This document shows, in pieces, positions 3,931-64,000 of a stretch of 64,000 bases of DNA. How positions within the stretch are numbered: the first letter of the stretch is position 1; each line of letters starts with the position of its first letter. Under the pieces are notes generated by a model, which was given only the letters and a program-made list of their open reading frames with translations, had not been told where the DNA came from and made no database searches. The position numbers and the translations under genes were made by a program. Source of the stretch: Nitrospira sp. (GTDB lineage: Bacteria; Nitrospirota; Nitrospiria; Nitrospirales; Nitrospiraceae). The DNA lies in NCBI GenBank assembly GCA_016873435.1, contig VGXF01000009.1, positions 1 through 64,000 on the forward strand. The letters run 5' to 3'.

Positions 3931-4014
3931 GGGGGAGGAGTCCGGGGTGAATCAAAAAAAGGATGGGGCATTGTAGGAAGCGATAGATGGAACGTCAAGT
4001 TGAGCGGATAACAC

Positions 4015-4135
4015 GTCGCGCAGCGACACCGCCTCCGGTGCCCATACACCATGCCCCGGTGGTATTACTGGGGCCTCACTGCTCGGCGGGATCTAGTCAG
4101 AATATGAGCGGTCGCACCACACACCGAGCGCAGCG
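4015..4135. repeat. About 120-bp dispersed element, copy A
   Basis: The ends match a second element at 9719-9836. The left end (4015-4043) matches that of copy B at about 24 of 29 bases and contains a small CACCG/CGGTG hairpin. The right end is CGAGCGCAGCG in both, at offsets of 110 and 107 bases. Each copy lies about 100 bases downstream of a minus-strand tRNA gene. No gene is visible inside. It could be an old mobile element or a structured RNA. Confidence 0.4.
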
Positions 4136-53961: not shown

Positions 53962-55356
<1,395 letters not shown>

Positions 55357-55357
55357 C

Positions 55358-56599
55358 GTGAAGAAGAAAAGAGCCAGGCCTCAGTCAAAGTCCGGGCGGA
55401 ATTCCGGAAAACCTTCTGCTCAGACCCGCGAGATCGAGCAGGTCGTCAACCGGCTCAAGACCGAGCGCGAAGCAGCGGTGGAGGCGCGCGCGTTGGCTGA
55501 GGCAGGCGAGCGCGGGGCGCTGCACCGCGAATCGCAGCTGGCCAATCTGCAATTGAACGGCATTCTCCAGTCGGCCATGGACGCCATCATTACGGCGGAC
55601 GACTGGCAGAATGTCGTGCTCTTCAACAAAGCGGCGGAAAAGATGTTCGGCTGTCCGGCGTCGGAGGCGATCGGGCGGTCCATCACCCGATTCATTCCGC
55701 AACGGTTCCGCGAAGCCCACACGGTGCATGTGAAGGCGTTCGGCCAGTCCGGGACGACGAACCGGAAAATGGGACGATTGGGCGCCATCACAGGGCTCCG
55801 CGCCAACGGGGAGGAGTTCCCGGCCGAAGCCTCAATTTCACAGATCGCCGTAGGGGAGAACAAATATTTCACGGTCATTTTGCGCGATATCTCCGAGCGC
55901 AAATGGATGGAGGATCAGCTCCGGCAGACCGAGCGGCTGGCCGAGGTGGGGATGCTGGCCTCGGGCATGGCCCATGAGATCGGCACGCCGATGAACGTCA
56001 TCATCGGCCGGGCCGAGCAGCTCATGCGTAAGACCGAGGATGAGACGACAAAAAAGGGACTGGCCACGATCGTCTCGCAGGTCGAGCGCATCACCAAAAT
56101 CATGAACCAGTTGCTGACCTTCGCCCGGCGGAAGCCCAGCGAGAGGCGGCCGGTCAACATCGGACAGATCGCCGAGGATTGTATCGAAGTCCTGCAGGAA
56201 AGGATCCGGCGTTCACGCGTGACGGTGCAGTCGGATTTCGAAACGACGCTGCATCCTGTCCATGTCCACGCCGATCCCGATCAGATGAGCCAGATGCTGC
56301 TCAATCTGTTCATCAACGCAATCCATGCCATGCCCGATGGCGGGACGCTGCGCATCGGACTCGCCCGAATGGACCGGCACGTGCAGATTGTCGTCGCCGA
56401 TACGGGCTACGGGATTCCTCCCGAAGACCTGTCGAAAATCTTCACGCCGTTCTTCACGACCAAGGAGGCTGGAAAGGGCACCGGCCTCGGCCTGACGGTC
56501 GTGCACAACATCATCGAGGAGCATGGCGGCTCCATTTCGGTGGAGAGCGAACCCGGACGGGGGACCACCTTCACGATCATGCTCCCCGCCAGCAAATAG
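55358..56599 (+). CDS. PAS-domain sensor histidine kinase
   Basis: The product has 413 residues from the GTG at 55358, 1 base after the regulator stop; the frame is open further upstream, but that would lie inside the regulator gene. The basic start and a coiled coil (about 20-65) lead to a PAS domain (66-185, MDAIITADDWQNVVLFNKAAEKMFG). The HisKA box has His206 in ASGMAHEIGTPMN, and the HATPase domain has LLNLFINAIHAM, DTGYGIP and GTGLGLTVV. No membrane helix is present, so it is a cytoplasmic sensor. It should phosphorylate Asp62 of the adjacent regulator, and perhaps also the lone receiver at 56825. The signal is unknown. Confidence 0.93.
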   Translation: MKKKRARPQSKSGRNSGKPSAQTREIEQVVNRLKTEREAAVEARALAEAGERGALHRESQLANLQLNGILQSAMDAIITADDWQNVVLFNKAAEKMFGCPASEAIGRSITRFIPQRFREAHTVHVKAFGQSGTTNRKMGRLGAITGLRANGEEFPAEASISQIAVGENKYFTVILRDISERKWMEDQLRQTERLAEVGMLASGMAHEIGTPMNVIIGRAEQLMRKTEDETTKKGLATIVSQVERITKIMNQLLTFARRKPSERRPVNIGQIAEDCIEVLQERIRRSRVTVQSDFETTLHPVHVHADPDQMSQMLLNLFINAIHAMPDGGTLRIGLARMDRHVQIVVADTGYGIPPEDLSKIFTPFFTTKEAGKGTGLGLTVVHNIIEEHGGSISVESEPGRGTTFTIMLPASK

Positions 56600-56670
56600 C
56601 GAGCAGCGAATAGCTGATATCTTTTCCGGCCTCCTACAGTTCGCTATTAGCTGCCAGCTATTAGCGCTCT
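56596..56670. repeat. Imperfect inverted GCTATT-type repeats
   Basis: The stretch between the kinase and the lone receiver holds several near-copies of AGCTATTAGC and GCGAATAGCTG in both directions. Similar GCTAT-like runs occur at 36928-36955 and 40998-41022. They lie between genes of the same operon. Confidence 0.4.
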
Positions 56671-56824
56671 CCAGCAGTGGGGCATCCTGCGCCAGCCGTT
56701 CCCGCCCCAACTGTAGTGTTTCTCGCCAGAGCGGCCTCCTGAAGCCGCGGGATCAGCCGAATTTCCCTCTGCGCAACCGCCGGCTCGCTTTTTCAAGGCG
56801 GCATAATTATTGCGTGAGAGAACC

Positions 56825-57247
56825 ATGAGGGGAGGCGCAGGCCGGACGGAGAGCGGTGTGGGACAAGAGAGGAAATCGGTGCTGCTGGTTGTGGAAGATG
56901 ACGGGGATATGCGCAGCTTGATCTGCGACGAGCTGTGGGATCTCGGCGCCCGGGTCGTGGAAGCGGCCGACGGGGACGAGGCCATGCAGAAACTCAGCGG
57001 CGCCAAACCGGATCTGATTCTGACCGATCTTCGGATGCCGGCGGGCGGCATGGATCACGTGCTGCGGCTTCGAACGATGGTGCCCGGATGTCCGATCATC
57101 GTCATGACGGCCTTCGGCGATGCGGCGATGCGGGAAACCGCGCTCAAGTGCGGCGCCGCCTATTTCGACAAGCCGGTCCGCATGGCGGAGCTGAAAGCGT
57201 CGATCAAACGGTTGCTGGATCATCGAGGAGCGCAAGCTGACAAGTAA
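56825..57247 (+). CDS. Single-domain response regulator
   Basis: The product has 140 residues from the ATG at 56825 (a TTG five codons upstream is less likely). It is a CheY-like receiver only: acidic pair EDD near residue 24, phospho-acceptor Asp68 in LILTDLRMPAG, Thr in VMTAFGD and Lys in YFDKPV. There is no output domain, so it would act by protein contact, for example as a phosphate sink or a phosphorelay step between the kinase and the second activator. An unusual Gly-Gly insertion follows the active site (MPAGGMDH). It sits between the kinase and the second sigma-54 activator genes. Confidence 0.88.
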   Translation: MRGGAGRTESGVGQERKSVLLVVEDDGDMRSLICDELWDLGARVVEAADGDEAMQKLSGAKPDLILTDLRMPAGGMDHVLRLRTMVPGCPIIVMTAFGDAAMRETALKCGAAYFDKPVRMAELKASIKRLLDHRGAQADK

Positions 57248-57285
57248 CAGACTGACAGGCTCAAAAGCCGGAGCAGAATTGGGTC

Positions 57286-58686
<1,401 letters not shown>

Positions 58687-58701: not shown

Positions 58702-59577
58702 ATGCGGACTTGTCGCTTCCGCCATGAGATTGGATCCGGACGTGTCCCTCTTCCTCCCGCGCTCGGGCTGCTCCTGACCGCGAGGCTTACCCTCTTGGCA
58801 GGCTGTGGAACAGCCCCCGTCGCCCAACGGGATTCCGGCCGCGCTCCCACGGTGCTCGTCGGCCCCTTCACGATGGAGGTGGCCATTTCGCACAGCAGCA
58901 AGATTTATTCGTTCGACGAACCGCCTTCACCCGAGCAGGAACCGGACATCAGAAAACGCCTGATCGCCGACGCCACATTCACGGCGCAGCAGTTGATGAC
59001 CGATCGTCTCGGCAGGCAGAAGAGGTTCTCGGTGCTGCCGTTGCACGAAGCGGAGCGCCTCGAAGCCACCGTGGCGCCACTCGTCACGGTGGCTCGCGAG
59101 CGAATTCTCGCGATGGGCCGGGTGGCCGGCGCCGATCTGGTGCTCTTCGGACGGCTCCTGGGCTATGGGCAGATGCCGTTGCGGTACTGGCTGACGGGGT
59201 GGGCCATCACCGCCTCGTCGCAACTGACCGTCGTGGGCGCGGTCAGCGGCTGCAATTCGGTGGCCATGGGCAGTTATCTCCTGTTCGACATCATGACCGA
59301 CCTGCCGATCTGGACCGGCGGCTTTTACGCGTTCGGCTGGGCGTTCCGGCCGGTGCTGATCGAGGTGGAGGTCTGGCAGTTGACGGGCTGCGAGCAGGAG
59401 GTCTGGAAGGTGCGCGAGTTCGCACTGCTCGGACACAAATATCTGGAGACCTATCCGGAACACTTGCGGAAGAAAAAGGAAGTCCAGTTGGAAGCCAATC
59501 TCACACGGGCCATCGAAGAGCTGGCGGAGCTGGCCAGCCGCACGCTGACGATGCAGCCCTGTCCGCAGGCTCCATAG
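58702..59577 (+). CDS. Lipoprotein of unknown function
   Basis: The product has 291 residues. The N-terminus is basic and hydrophobic with a lipobox (LTLLAGCGTAP), so a lipid anchor is expected. The mature part has a segment reminiscent of envelope proteins that gather metal- or stress-related functions (RLIADATFTAQQLMTDRLG, GADLVLFGRLLGYGQ), then a hydrophobic, Gly-rich middle (WLTGWAITASSQLTVVGAVSG) and a helical end. I do not recognise the family. It is 15 bases after the second sigma-54 activator and the last gene before the multicopper oxidase, so a role in the same envelope process is plausible but unproven. Confidence 0.7.
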   Translation: MRTCRFRHEIGSGRVPLPPALGLLLTARLTLLAGCGTAPVAQRDSGRAPTVLVGPFTMEVAISHSSKIYSFDEPPSPEQEPDIRKRLIADATFTAQQLMTDRLGRQKRFSVLPLHEAERLEATVAPLVTVARERILAMGRVAGADLVLFGRLLGYGQMPLRYWLTGWAITASSQLTVVGAVSGCNSVAMGSYLLFDIMTDLPIWTGGFYAFGWAFRPVLIEVEVWQLTGCEQEVWKVREFALLGHKYLETYPEHLRKKKEVQLEANLTRAIEELAELASRTLTMQPCPQAP

Positions 59578-59623
59578 AACGTATTCCCGCGTCTGCCCCA
59601 TTCCACACCAATTTGCAGTTCTC

Positions 59624-59645
59624 AGCGTCCAAATCATTGGACGCT
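59624..59645. promoter_or_regulatory. Perfect 9+4+9 palindrome, candidate activator-binding site
   Basis: AGCGTCCAA (59624-59632) and TTGGACGCT (59637-59645) are exact inverted copies around a 4-base spacer. It lies about 160 bases upstream of the sigma-54 promoter, the usual distance for binding of NtrC-type activators. It is enclosed by a second inverted pair, CCACACCAAT (59603-59612) and ATTGGTGTGG (59708-59717). Confidence 0.55.
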
Positions 59646-59800
59646 CCAACTAGTTGAAATGATTGAGAGCTGTATTTTGGCATCTGCCGGTCTGTCCAGA
59701 GATGTGGATTGGTGTGGGGAAGACTTTTCTGGCGCATTCTCAAAATAGCTCTAAGTGATTGTTGAGTCAGACGATTTACATTTTCATTTTAATGCGAGAG

Positions 59801-59818
59801 TCCGGCACGACAGTTGCG
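59801..59818 (+). promoter_or_regulatory. Sigma-54 (-24/-12) promoter for the multicopper oxidase
   Basis: The sequence reads CCGGCACGACAGTTGCG. The invariant GG is at 59804-59805 and the GC at 59816-59817, with exactly 10 bases between. GGCACG and TTGC match the consensus. Transcription would start near 59829, about 173 bases before the start codon. The preceding genes encode two sigma-54 activators. Confidence 0.7.
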
Positions 59819-59831
59819 GTAATCCGTCTTG

Positions 59832-59907
59832 CCGGTGAAGGGTGGGGTGTACTTGGACCGGCCTCCGATTCACCCTAGACCCCTCCTCACGGAGGACCCT
59901 TCACCGG
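59832..59907 (+). promoter_or_regulatory. Leader RNA stem at the 5' end of the oxidase transcript
   Basis: CCGGTGAAGGGT (59832-59843) and ACCCTTCACCGG (59896-59907) are perfect 12-base inverted copies. The 52-base loop contains a small TCCTC/GAGGA hairpin. The stem begins within a few bases of the predicted transcription start, as 5' protective or regulatory stems do. No T-tract follows. Confidence 0.5.
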
Positions 59908-60001
59908 TTCAAAGAAACCGGCCGGAAGTTGGATTAAGAGGAAGCGACACTTTTTTCACAACGTCATGAGGACTGAATTGTTCAAACCAAGGGAGGCCAT
60001 T

Positions 60002-63000
60002 ATGCACAGGCAGTCGTACCCGCAGAGTTGGATGACGACTCTGCAGCATCTTGTGGTGGCAGCGAGTCTGGCGGCGACGCCGGCGGCGTTTGCCGAGGAA
60101 AGCCATCAGCACCAGACATCGCCAAAAGCGACGTCCGTGGGATGGCAGCAGCAGTTGAAGGGCCAGACCATCGTTGAGGAGGCGATCGAGGGACGCACCG
60201 CGCGGTCCGCGCAGATCGAAGCCCAGCATCACCGCCTGATGGAGAATCTGGACGCGCAGATGCAGCGCGAAGGCCGCATCCGCCAGACGTCCGGCGCCTT
60301 CGGCAACACGTCCATGATGCACCAGTACATGGGGCAGGACGGCTCCAGCTTTCTGCTGATGTCGGACAACAAAATGGAACCGGTGTCCGCGACGGGCGGC
60401 AAGTGCCCGGAGGCCGCGCCGGCCAAGCACTATGACATCTCGATGATCGGCATCGAGATCACGCTGAACCGCTGGCAGGATTTCTATCCCGGCTACATGT
60501 ACGTGCTGACACAGGACGTGGACAAGGCCCGCGCGGAGGAAGCGAAGAACAAGGCGGCGCGCGAGAAGGATGGGTTTGATCCGGGTTCCGTGACCACCGG
60601 CCTTCAGGGCGACGTGATCCAGCCGCTCGTCATCCGGGCCAACCAGGGTGACTGCGTGAAGATCACGCTGCGCAACCAGATGCAGGAGGAAATGGGCAGC
60701 CTGCACATCCAGTCGGCGGGCATGATCATCAGCGCCACGGGCAAAGCGGCGACGACGACCAATCCGGATTCCGTTGTGGCGCCCGGCAAGTCCGTGGACA
60801 TGGAATGGTACATTCATGCGCATACCCAGGAGGGCGTGCGGCAGTTCCATTCCTACAGCCGCGACCGCGAGCTGACGGTGCTGGGTCTTTTCGGCGCCTT
60901 CATCGTGGAGCCGAAGGGTTCCAAGTATCTCGATCCGCTCGGCACGGGGCCCGCGCCTGAGGTGGCCACCGGCTGGCAGGTGATGATCGACAACGGCTCG
61001 GGCCCGGACTTTCGCGAGCACGTGCTGTTCTATCATGAGATCGGCGACGAAGCGTTCCGCCCGTTGAACAAGAAGGGCGACTTCCTGCCGCAGCGCGATC
61101 CGCTCACCGACGCCTACCGTCCGGGCGGCCGCGCGTTGAACTACCGCAGCGAGCCGTTCGGCATCGATCAGATGCACCTGCAGCACGAGTATTTCGGGTT
61201 CGAAGACGAGTCCATGGCCTACAGCGCCTACACGTTCGGCGATCCGCCCACCACGATTCCCCGTGGCTATCTGGGCGATCCGACGAAGTGGCGCATCGTG
61301 CACGGCGGGTCGGAGGTGTTCCATTCGCACCATCCGCACAGCGGTACGATCCGCTGGCAGCGCAGCCCGATGACCGAGCCCAACAACATGTGGGCGATGG
61401 GCCAGGACGGCCCGGTGAAGTATCCGGTCATCCGGACCAAGTCCGACCGCGTGGACGTGGAAGTCATCGGTCCGTCGGAAGCGCTCGATCTCGAGCCGGA
61501 ATGCGGCGGCGGAGGGTGCCAGCACCTGGCCGGCGAATTCCTGTTCCACTGCCACGTCGCCCACCACTATGTGGCGGGGATGTGGGGCTATGGCCGCTAC
61601 TACAACACGCTCCAGGTGGGCGCGAGCCATACCGACACGATGCCGGACATGCGGGAACTGCCGGACCGGCAGGGCCGCATGAAGCTCGGCGTGTCGTCCG
61701 ACAAGCTGATCGGGACGACCGTCGACTGGTTCGGCAAGAAGTTCCAGATCGTGGCGCGCAATCAGAAGACCAACTGGAAGGCCAATCCGGTCGTCGTGAA
61801 CATCAAGGACTGGGTCGAGATGTTCGTGCCGGCGCAGGGCAAGCCCGGCCACACGGATGAGGAAAAGGCTCAGATCATCTCCTACGACGCCACCGTGTGG
61901 GATTGGAAGTGGGAGGGCGACGTGGCCAAGGGCGAGCGGGAGAGCACGGCCGTGAACCCGAAGTATCCCGCGGCCGCCAAGTGGTCGGACACCACCCGTC
62001 CGAACATCCTGTTCGATCCGACCACGGGCAAGCTGGCGTGGCCGCTCTTCAAGCCGCATTTCGGCAAGCGCGTGCCCTTCTCCGCGAACCACAGCGGGGC
62101 GCCCTGGCTGGAGCCGATCCACCAGGACGAGAACGGCGAGCGGACCAGCGAGCCGGCCAAGCCGGGCGAGAACGGTCCGTGGAGCCTCTGCCCGGCCAAC
62201 GCGAGCACGCCCAAGGTGAACAATCTCCATTTCATCCGTCTGCCCATCACCCTGGCCAAGAAGCAGGGGAAGGAGCCGGCGATCACGGATAAGGACGGAT
62301 TGATCTACGTGCATCACGAGGAGGAGAACCTCATTCGCAAGGACGACGACCTCAAGTTCCCGGCGGTCATCCGCGCCAACGTGTATGACTGCGTGGATAC
62401 GCTGCTCACGAGCGAGTGGGACGACGACGACTACACCAACTTCCAGTCGTCGAAAATCAACATCCACCCCCACTTCTTCCAGTTCGACACAGGGAACTCG
62501 GACGGCGTGATCTCCGGCATGGAGTACGAAATGTCGGTCCGTCCCTTCACCATGTGGGGGAAGAAGACGAAGCACGGGCTGCCCGCGCCGATGGTGGCCA
62601 AGCTGCCCGGCGGGGCCAAGGCGGGCGCCACGTCCGTCACGATTCAGATGGCGCCCGGCGCCACCGCGTTCCATGTGAACACCGAAGTCATGGTGGGCAT
62701 GGACTGCCTCGAGAAGGGCAGAGATGCCGCGACCTCGCTGCCGCGGGATAAGAGCTGCTCGGAGGTGGCGAGGATCAAGGCAATCGACGGCAGCACGCTG
62801 ACCTTCTTCAAGCCGTTGAAGCGCAACCACCCGGCGAACGACTTAGTGTCGCCGGAGTATGTGCGGTACCGCTACTGGGTGGACGCCGATTACGGCACCG
62901 TGTTCTGGCACGACCACGCCTTCGGCGCGACGACCTGGCCGCACGGCGGGTTCGGCGTGACGATCGTGGAGCCGTTCGGCAGCACGTATCACGATCCGAA

Positions 63001-64000
63001 GAACGGCAAGCTGGTCTACAGCGGGCCGATCGCGGACATCCACAGCACCGAGCCGATCGGCTACGGCGTGAGCGGAAGCTTCCGCGAACTGATGGTGTCC
63101 ATCCACGACACCGTCCCGCACACCGTAAACGTGATCCAGGCGGGCAATCCGCCCGGACAGCCGATCGAGGTGGCGCTGGAGGCCGGCAAGACGGTCTCGT
63201 TCCAGATGCCGGACAAGATCCTGCTGGCGCCGAATCCGTTCATCAACGGCGGTACGCACACGACGGGCAGCGGGTTCAACTTCCGCGCCGAACCGTTCGC
63301 TCAGCGGCTGGCCAACAATCCGGACACGTCGGTGCTGTTCAGCAGCGCCACGCACGGGGATCCGGACACGCCGCTGTTGAAGGCGTACACGGGCGACACG
63401 GTCGTGTTCCGCCTGTTGCATCAGTTGATGAACGAATCGCATGTGTGGACGATCGCCGGGCATACGTTCCTGACGGAGCGCTATGCGGGGGATGCCAATC
63501 GGAAGAACTCGATCCACGTCGGGATCGCCGAACGGTATGACCTCGTCACCAAGGCCGGCGGCTTCCAGGGCATGCCGGGGGATTACATCCACTTCAACGG
63601 GCGGAGCTCGCACTTCGCCGAGGGCGGATGGGGCATCTTCCGCGTGCTGGACAAGCCGGCCACGGACCTGCAGCCGCTTCCGAAGGGGACCAATCCCAAG
63701 GGCATTCCGGAAACGCCGAGTGGCGTCTGTCCGTCTGGCGCGCCGGTGAAAAACTTCAACGTCGTGGCGGTGGACCGCCCGATGAAGCTGCATCCGAAGG
63801 CGCCGGACTCGATCGAGGTGGACTTCGAGCGGAAGATCGAGTTGACCATGCCGGAAGGCAAGATCTTCATGCTTGAGGACGAGGCGGCGCGGACGGCGGC
63901 CAATGTGACGCCGCATCCGTTGACGCTCCGGGTGAACCTCAATGATTGCATCAAAGTGAACCTGAAAAACAAGATGGCCAAGAGCAAGGCGTCGTTCTTT
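60002..64000 (+). CDS. Giant secreted multicopper oxidase (Mn-oxidase-like), 3' end beyond window
   Basis: The frame is open from the ATG at 60002 (GGGAGG upstream) to the window end: 1333 codons and no stop. Residues 1-31 are a signal peptide (cleavage after AFA). Copper motifs: HIQ (His235), HAH (272, 274), QFH (283), HSHHPH (441-446) and the complete type 1/trinuclear motif HCHVAHHYVAGM (Cys517, His522, Met527). A second set begins with HPH (822, 824), FWHDH (970, 972) and NESH (1147), so several cupredoxin domains are repeated, and a third block starts at the window edge (NLNDCIKVNLKN). Ordinary multicopper oxidases have about 500-600 residues; such giants include bacterial Mn(II) oxidases (MnxG, McoA). 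Oxidation of Mn(II) or another metal outside the cytoplasm is inferred, not shown. Confidence 0.85.
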   Translation, partial: MHRQSYPQSWMTTLQHLVVAASLAATPAAFAEESHQHQTSPKATSVGWQQQLKGQTIVEEAIEGRTARSAQIEAQHHRLMENLDAQMQREGRIRQTSGAFGNTSMMHQYMGQDGSSFLLMSDNKMEPVSATGGKCPEAAPAKHYDISMIGIEITLNRWQDFYPGYMYVLTQDVDKARAEEAKNKAAREKDGFDPGSVTTGLQGDVIQPLVIRANQGDCVKITLRNQMQEEMGSLHIQSAGMIISATGKAATTTNPDSVVAPGKSVDMEWYIHAHTQEGVRQFHSYSRDRELTVLGLFGAFIVEPKGSKYLDPLGTGPAPEVATGWQVMIDNGSGPDFREHVLFYHEIGDEAFRPLNKKGDFLPQRDPLTDAYRPGGRALNYRSEPFGIDQMHLQHEYFGFEDESMAYSAYTFGDPPTTIPRGYLGDPTKWRIVHGGSEVFHSHHPHSGTIRWQRSPMTEPNNMWAMGQDGPVKYPVIRTKSDRVDVEVIGPSEALDLEPECGGGGCQHLAGEFLFHCHVAHHYVAGMWGYGRYYNTLQVGASHTDTMPDMRELPDRQGRMKLGVSSDKLIGTTVDWFGKKFQIVARNQKTNWKANPVVVNIKDWVEMFVPAQGKPGHTDEEKAQIISYDATVWDWKWEGDVAKGERESTAVNPKYPAAAKWSDTTRPNILFDPTTGKLAWPLFKPHFGKRVPFSANHSGAPWLEPIHQDENGERTSEPAKPGENGPWSLCPANASTPKVNNLHFIRLPITLAKKQGKEPAITDKDGLIYVHHEEENLIRKDDDLKFPAVIRANVYDCVDTLLTSEWDDDDYTNFQSSKINIHPHFFQFDTGNSDGVISGMEYEMSVRPFTMWGKKTKHGLPAPMVAKLPGGAKAGATSVTIQMAPGATAFHVNTEVMVGMDCLEKGRDAATSLPRDKSCSEVARIKAIDGSTLTFFKPLKRNHPANDLVSPEYVRYRYWVDADYGTVFWHDHAFGATTWPHGGFGVTIVEPFGSTYHDPKNGKLVYSGPIADIHSTEPIGYGVSGSFRELMVSIHDTVPHTVNVIQAGNPPGQPIEVALEAGKTVSFQMPDKILLAPNPFINGGTHTTGSGFNFRAEPFAQRLANNPDTSVLFSSATHGDPDTPLLKAYTGDTVVFRLLHQLMNESHVWTIAGHTFLTERYAGDANRKNSIHVGIAERYDLVTKAGGFQGMPGDYIHFNGRSSHFAEGGWGIFRVLDKPATDLQPLPKGTNPKGIPETPSGVCPSGAPVKNFNVVAVDRPMKLHPKAPDSIEVDFERKIELTMPEGKIFMLEDEAARTAANVTPHPLTLRVNLNDCIKVNLKNKMAKSKASFF

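Follow-up and report, generated by a model that had tools for sequence, protein, structure and literature searches.

Most Nitrospiraceae genomes carry a structured leader RNA behind a sigma-54 promoter and ahead of a giant multicopper oxidase gene, MCO54. It is a new RNA family, uncatalogued before. Its apical segment GGACCGGCCUCC, judged by its complementarity, is an anti-Shine-Dalgarno (anti-SD) sequence. The leader hairpin probably controls the amount made of two enzymes, MCO54 and its paralogue MCO70, which are named after the promoter type of each oxidase gene. In the most far-reaching reading, the sigma-54-induced leader would be a built-in antisense regulator throughout the Nitrospiraceae, with MCO70 turned off and MCO54 gated, i.e., an RNA-based isozyme switch. 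Its probability is put at roughly 0.37. The original prediction, made from the sequence of the window alone, had described a sigma-54 control region with a palindrome, a nested inverted pair and a leader stem; the anti-SD loop, its match to the paralogue and the new RNA family go beyond it.

Gene neighbourhood and sigma-54 control

The window, i.e., the whole stretch of 64,000 nt that was analysed, comes from a 1.72-Mb Nitrospiraceae genome that is 98.5% complete. Its control region is flanked by a two-component/sigma-54 regulatory cluster (53962-58686) on one side and by the giant multicopper oxidase gene (ATG 60002) on the other. The genes concerned are the following.

53962..55356, + strand: NtrC-family response regulator with a GAFTDA loop (Pfam)
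55154..56599, + strand: PAS histidine kinase (Pfam and neighbour comparison)
56810..57247, + strand: stand-alone receiver (response regulator), a neighbour conserved in relatives
57286..58686, + strand: PAS-AAA-HTH_8 sigma-54 activator with a GSFTGA loop (Pfam; conserved neighbour)
60002..64000, + strand: giant MnxG-like multicopper oxidase (MCO54), running past the window edge to 64906 on its own contig (Pfam Cu-oxidase_3)

If the upstream ATG 59966 is taken as the start, the frame on its own contig gives an MCO54 product of 1647 aa. It is homologous to the MnxG of PDB entry 9bxa (E 4e-85), but its match to the NCBIfam MnxG model (NF041487) is partial and, with 102.5 bits, does not reach the equivalog cut-off of 3100 bits. 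On these comparisons, the protein is therefore classed as MnxG-like and not assigned as MnxG. The gene of the PAS-AAA-HTH activator adjoins MCO54 in 28 orthologous loci, compared to 0 of 29 loci for MCO70. Sigma-54 itself is encoded in the same genome (PF04552, E 6e-56). As for the other regulators, the frame of the histidine kinase at 55154 overlaps the preceding gene, so that its true start is probably further downstream. The NtrC-family regulator shows GAFTDA where sigma-54 activators carry GAFTGA (GSFTGA in its neighbour at 57286), and its contact with sigma-54 may not be normal. A lipoprotein-like reading frame of 291 aa (58702-59577) lies between the activator gene and the promoter. It has no Pfam or NCBIfam match and, among the relatives, occurs at L029 only.

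The control region upstream of the leader consists of the following elements.

59603-59612 / 59708-59717, no strand: 10-nt inverted pair, coordinates as first described
59624..59645, no strand: upstream activator site 1, AGCGTCCAAATCATTGGACGCT, a perfect and conserved 9-4-9 palindrome
59691..59710, no strand: probable upstream activator site 2, TCTGTCCAGAGATGTGGATT, a weaker copy of site 1
59803..59818, + strand: sigma-54 -24/-12 box CGGCACGACAGTTGCG, with GG at 59804-59805, GC at 59816-59817 and N10 spacing
59829, + strand: inferred transcription start, 12 nt past the -12 C by the standard sigma-54 distance

Palindrome, inverted pair, box and stem are all present exactly as first described, position for position. 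None of them is convincing alone when counts within the window are compared with those in shuffled sequence. Stems of 12 bp with a loop of 3-60 occur once (0.35 expected), short palindromes of 9 bp nine times (2.4 expected), 10-bp pairs within 100 nt 16 times (11.9 expected) and strict sigma-54 strings twice (1.65 expected). What decides is the comparison between genomes: essentially every orthologous locus has the palindrome, the box and the stem again, at constant distances from one another. Conservation across about 45 related loci thus bears out three of the four original inferences, namely the sigma-54 promoter, the upstream activator site and the structured 5' leader, each in its own right.

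The box CGGCACGACAGTTGCG is close to the sigma-54 consensus TGGCAC-N5-TTGC. The sequence upstream was long enough for a test at 44 orthologous MCO loci; 43 of them have a GGCAY-N5-TTGC box (L045 has none), 220-510 nt ahead of the oxidase match, and the box is also found at the loci of a sister family. Across the orthologues, a constant 51-54 nt separate the box from the RNA core, so the RNA element would begin about 2-3 nt past the expected transcript start. Taken together with the sigma-54 gene of this genome, these results uphold the promoter as first proposed. The reading of the palindrome as an upstream activator site fared equally well. Site 1 follows the consensus CTGTCYAA-N4-TTRGACAG across the family, and its form and position are kept in 44/44 loci scored, window included. 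Counted from the box start, it lies between -177 and -184 in 42 of these loci and at -192/-193 in two. The palindrome is thus supported as an activator-type site, and its presumed binding protein is likely the PAS-AAA-HTH protein encoded at 57286..58686. Many relatives have equivalents of site 2 (TGTCYAA-N4-YTGGAAA) between -113 and -117. A role for the nested 10-base inverted pair is not supported. The pair shows no conservation across the orthologous loci compared and its frequency is at chance level, for which reasons it was rejected as a looping element.

Structure and distribution of the leader RNA

The leader measures about 173 nt, from the inferred start near 59829 to ATG 60002, and comprises these parts.

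59828..59912, + strand: conserved leader RNA element, a three-way junction (model R1; R1 match of 70 bits, fold and covariation)
59831-59843/59896-59908, + strand: helix P1 of the element
59844-59849/59871-59876, + strand: helix P2 of the element
59853-59857/59864-59868, + strand: helix P3 of the element
59882-59886/59891-59895, + strand: helix P4 of the element
59855..59866, + strand: anti-SD segment GGACCGGCCUCC, invariant in 38/38 distinct type I elements
59992..59998, + strand: SD sequence GGAGGCC, complementary to the loop over 7 bp

The perfect 12-bp stem (59832-59843 / 59896-59907) is lengthened to 13 bp by a G-U pair. Folded free of covariance information, the first 112 nt of the leader reach -50.1 kcal/mol (z = -3.1). 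Across 38 distinct elements, 10 of the 22 pairs changed on both sides, including 6 of the 11 pairs of the closing stem, and P1 is 100% paired. When divergent copies were added (68 sequences), the number of pairs changed on both sides rose to 17 of 22. In this alignment, which had been fitted to the structure, 97.1% of cells are paired vs 36-54% in slid controls. The compensatory stem changes that the original prediction proposed to look for in related genomes were hence found, and its structured 5' leader is confirmed at the level of conservation. A long inverted repeat bound by a regulator as DNA, and not acting as RNA, would agree with the presence of inverted repeats beside the promoter. 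It is nevertheless hardly credible, given the position downstream of the start, pair changes that pass through G-U intermediates and four nested helices with covariation.

Of 118 Nitrospiraceae genomes, 101 contain the R1 element, and 19 of 22 genera are represented. In a covariance search, antisense matches came in at E up to 0.5, and a threshold of 0.002 was used. In a sample of the phylum (246 genomes), the element occurs only in Nitrospiraceae and in a single sister family within the same order (5 genomes). There, the stem sequence is replaced, and the loop with its anti-SD segment, the box and the gene are retained. Every copy inspected, extra copies included, is located upstream of a giant MnxG-like MCO gene. 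Rfam release 15 gave no match for the window region, six orthologous loci and five divergent loci. A second match of the region in the same genome (C10:14887, L002) was discarded as an AT-rich chance match with no sigma-54 box. Up to about four giant MCO paralogues are present in Nitrospira genomes, several in tandem, with promoters of sigma-54 or sigma-70 type, and the leader element has spread among giant-MCO subfamilies (L158-L171, L303-L316). At L170 (G100:C15:35000-43000), a type I leader copy (3949-4033) with promoter-like DNA upstream stands ahead of a shortened MCO frame, whose N-terminus is fused to a C-terminal part; it looks like a second copy that has undergone deletion.

The anti-SD loop and its predicted targets

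The sequence GGACCGGCCUCCG of the apical hairpin is without variation in the 38 distinct elements. Nearly all MCO genes bearing the leader have GGAGGC(C) at their SD; orthologues show, e.g., GGAGGCCG, GGAGGCCA and GGAGGUC. SD usage in the genome under study was assessed on 787 kb of unselected contigs, plus pattern searches. Of the 104 GGAGG-type SDs there, no more than 12 have CC next, and GGAGGCCG was rejected as the general SD of the genome, as it accounts for only 4 of the 104 (GGAGGCCGG for 1). Divergent leaders, which belong to other giant-MCO paralogues, reveal compensatory pairs: the loop CCUCCUGAA occurs with the SD UUCAGGAGG, and the loop CCUCCUCUC with the SD GAGAGGAGG. In 22 divergent leaders, loop-SD pairing is better for the real partners than after shuffling (p = 0.014, a value that calls for caution as the sequences are related). 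Since type I loops are invariant, loop-SD covariation depends on these divergent copies.

The same evidence bears on a protein-binding or mRNA-stabilising 5' hairpin, for instance a CsrA-type GGA target, for which the SD complementarity would be incidental. Such a hairpin is suggested by the stem start at about +3, as is typical of 5' protective hairpins, and by a GGA in the apical part. We consider it highly improbable: a protective stem needs neither a 13-nt invariant loop nor loop-SD compensation, and no CsrA gene (PF02599) was found in the 98.5%-complete genome. Explanations of the CsrA and RsmZ type were rejected, as neither CsrA nor RsmZ was found.

In the window, the cis match covers only 7 bp; by duplex energy, it stands at about rank 100 among 719 start regions of the same genome. 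Cis pairing would therefore depend on proximity here. Most genera have one or two more GGAGGCCGG(U/UC) copies 16-71 nt past the stem; no strong extra copy of the GGAGGCCGG type follows the stem in the window leader. Further GAGGCCGG and GGAGGCCGGU(C) copies, which lack a start codon, occur in the leaders of the loci L005-L048, with up to 11 nt of complementarity to the loop. The gene next downstream of MCO54 (L021 9029-10066, other loci) often has an SD of the GGAGGCCGG type, and the loop might act on several cistrons of the MCO54 operon. The loop is kept in genomes without MCO70, which calls for a role in cis. Complementarity and covariation make gating of MCO54 translation in cis a fairly probable function of the leader.

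A ligand-sensing riboswitch would make other use of the same parts. Its invariant core, including GGGUGAUU and CCGAAUGACCC, would bind a metal or metabolite and toggle the loop between the SD and the internal copies. The nucleotides flanking the anti-SD segment (GGGUGAUU, CCGAAUGACCC), which lie outside the SD complement, are indeed invariant as well, and most genera offer the loop two mutually exclusive partners. The divergent copies ahead of other MCO genes, however, alter much of the flanking core and keep the loop, which fits pairing and not a ligand pocket. The riboswitch is thus deemed unlikely.

The second predicted target of the loop is MCO70, an unlinked paralogue about 64-68% identical to MCO54. 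Neither a sigma-54 box nor the leader element is found upstream of MCO70, whose promoter is of the sigma-70 type (conserved TTGACA-N15-18-TATCKT). The loop GGACCGGCCUCC is the exact 12-nt complement of the MCO70 SD (GGAGGCCGGUCC-AUG). In 23 non-redundant sequences, the translation start reads AAGGAGGCCGGUCC-AUG, and the GGAGGCCGGUCC block holds about 1.4-2 bits per position vs 0.03-0.8 in the upstream flank. The motif GGAGGCCGGTCCATG is present in 62 of 118 family genomes and nearly always single (0 for the reversed-pattern control), and the occurrences that were read are MCO70 starts. An origin of the SD extension in a hairpin of MCO70 itself was rejected, as most MCO70 mRNAs have no comparable internal partner for the SD. 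In the genome under study, the MCO70 SD GGAGGCCGGUGC has one mismatch and 10 contiguous pairs with the loop. It ranks second of 719 start regions for loop pairing, in a set where three of the seven stretches were chosen for holding hits. In this genome, the loop pairs comparably with a few other genes that have GGAGGCCGG SDs. Starts with AAGGAGGCCGG SDs are found at G000 C7:17875, C11:53326, C1:169496 and C6:111753; they belong to two peroxiredoxins, a probable 2-oxoacid:ferredoxin oxidoreductase subunit and a NarL-type regulator, and are possible further trans targets. Among genomes without the leader, the MCO70 motif has drifted in G066 and G009 and is kept in G017, G058, G021 and G047.

The conserved 7-nt extension of the MCO70 SD matches the loop and thereby suggests a role in trans; silencing of MCO70 by the leader is put forward tentatively on this complementarity. 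Alternatively, the element might act chiefly as a small RNA derived from the leader, which would silence MCO70 through its anti-SD loop when the sigma-54 operon is on, with the cis match being secondary. The match to the MCO70 SD is perfect over 12 nt vs 7-8 nt in cis, the predicted duplex reaches -29.2 kcal/mol vs -15.2 kcal/mol for the SD of the window itself, and the MCO70 motif is essentially single-copy per genome. Against this stand the intact loop in genomes without MCO70, the compensatory changes seen in cis and the absence of a general terminator. Some genera have a U-run after the stem (L021) and the window has none; a consistent terminator after the element, which would support a free small RNA, was not found among the orthologous loci. 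Overall, a primarily trans-acting RNA appears rather doubtful.

A mechanism can be drawn up from what is read in the sequence, i.e., the promoter, activator sites, RNA structure, invariant loop and both complementarities. The PAS-AAA-HTH activator, encoded just upstream, would bind the two sites around -180 and -115 and drive sigma-54 transcription of MCO54. The transcript would open with a three-way-junction RNA of about 80 nt that displays GGACCGGCCUCC in its apical hairpin. In the cell, the loop would pair with the GGAGGCC(G) SD of the same mRNA in a long-range pseudoknot and gate translation. The extra GGAGGCCGG(U) copies of most genera, 30-70 nt past the stem, may compete with the SD for the loop, a possible anti-sequestering switch, which might respond to a sensed signal. 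The leader, whole or processed, would reach the MCO70 mRNA and probably also repress it in trans via the 12-nt SD complement.

Related systems and significance

SD-sequestering riboswitches and pseudoknot leaders have a structured conserved 5' core with a segment able to pair with a downstream SD. The conserved core of the Nitrospira leader likewise holds such a segment, and two hallmarks of these leaders were found in it: a covarying structure and an SD complement kept by compensatory change. In contrast to them, it has no Rfam match, and its segment also matches the SD of an unlinked paralogue. Listeria SreA and rhizobial rnTrpL are terminated or processed leader RNAs, reportedly shown by experiment to regulate an unlinked mRNA by pairing. 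They share with the Nitrospira element a 5' leader that has an unlinked mRNA as pairing target, but trans action is only predicted for the latter.

In function, the alpha-r14 small-RNA family comes closest. The alpha-r14/NfeR1 anti-SD small RNAs of rhizobia carry ultraconserved anti-SD loops on variable stems (PMC10746234). Both systems target translation starts with an ultraconserved anti-SD hairpin loop (CCUCCUCCC there, CCGGCCUCC here), but those of the Alphaproteobacteria act in trans as free small RNAs and have three such hairpins (PMC10746234). In Nitrospirales, a single hairpin sits in a three-way junction within an mRNA leader after a sigma-54 start, and the target sites reach beyond the SD core. 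At the promoter level, the available text of two studies on Pseudomonas putida GB-1 describes sigma-54 control of mnxG and mcoA by MnxS1/MnxS2/MnxR, i.e., giant MnxG-type MCO genes with sigma-54 promoters and dedicated two-component/sigma-54 activators; that text makes no mention of a comparable leader RNA (PMC11409713, PMC11930936). Nitrospira differs by its phylum, by a PAS-AAA-HTH activator encoded next to the oxidase gene and by an added paralogue with a sigma-70-type promoter.

In the open-access literature, no report was found of a cis-regulatory or trans-acting RNA for Nitrospira oxidases, or of this leader RNA. Nitrospira are dominant in nitrite oxidation and include complete ammonia oxidisers. 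Their MnxG-type oxidases are suspected of manganese oxidation and removal in drinking-water filters (PMC12070406). Now that a promoter, an activator, an RNA element and two predicted targets are defined, the regulation of these oxidases can be tested directly. Should the trans arm prove true, one conserved 12-nt loop would wire an isozyme switch between two giant MnxG-like oxidases.
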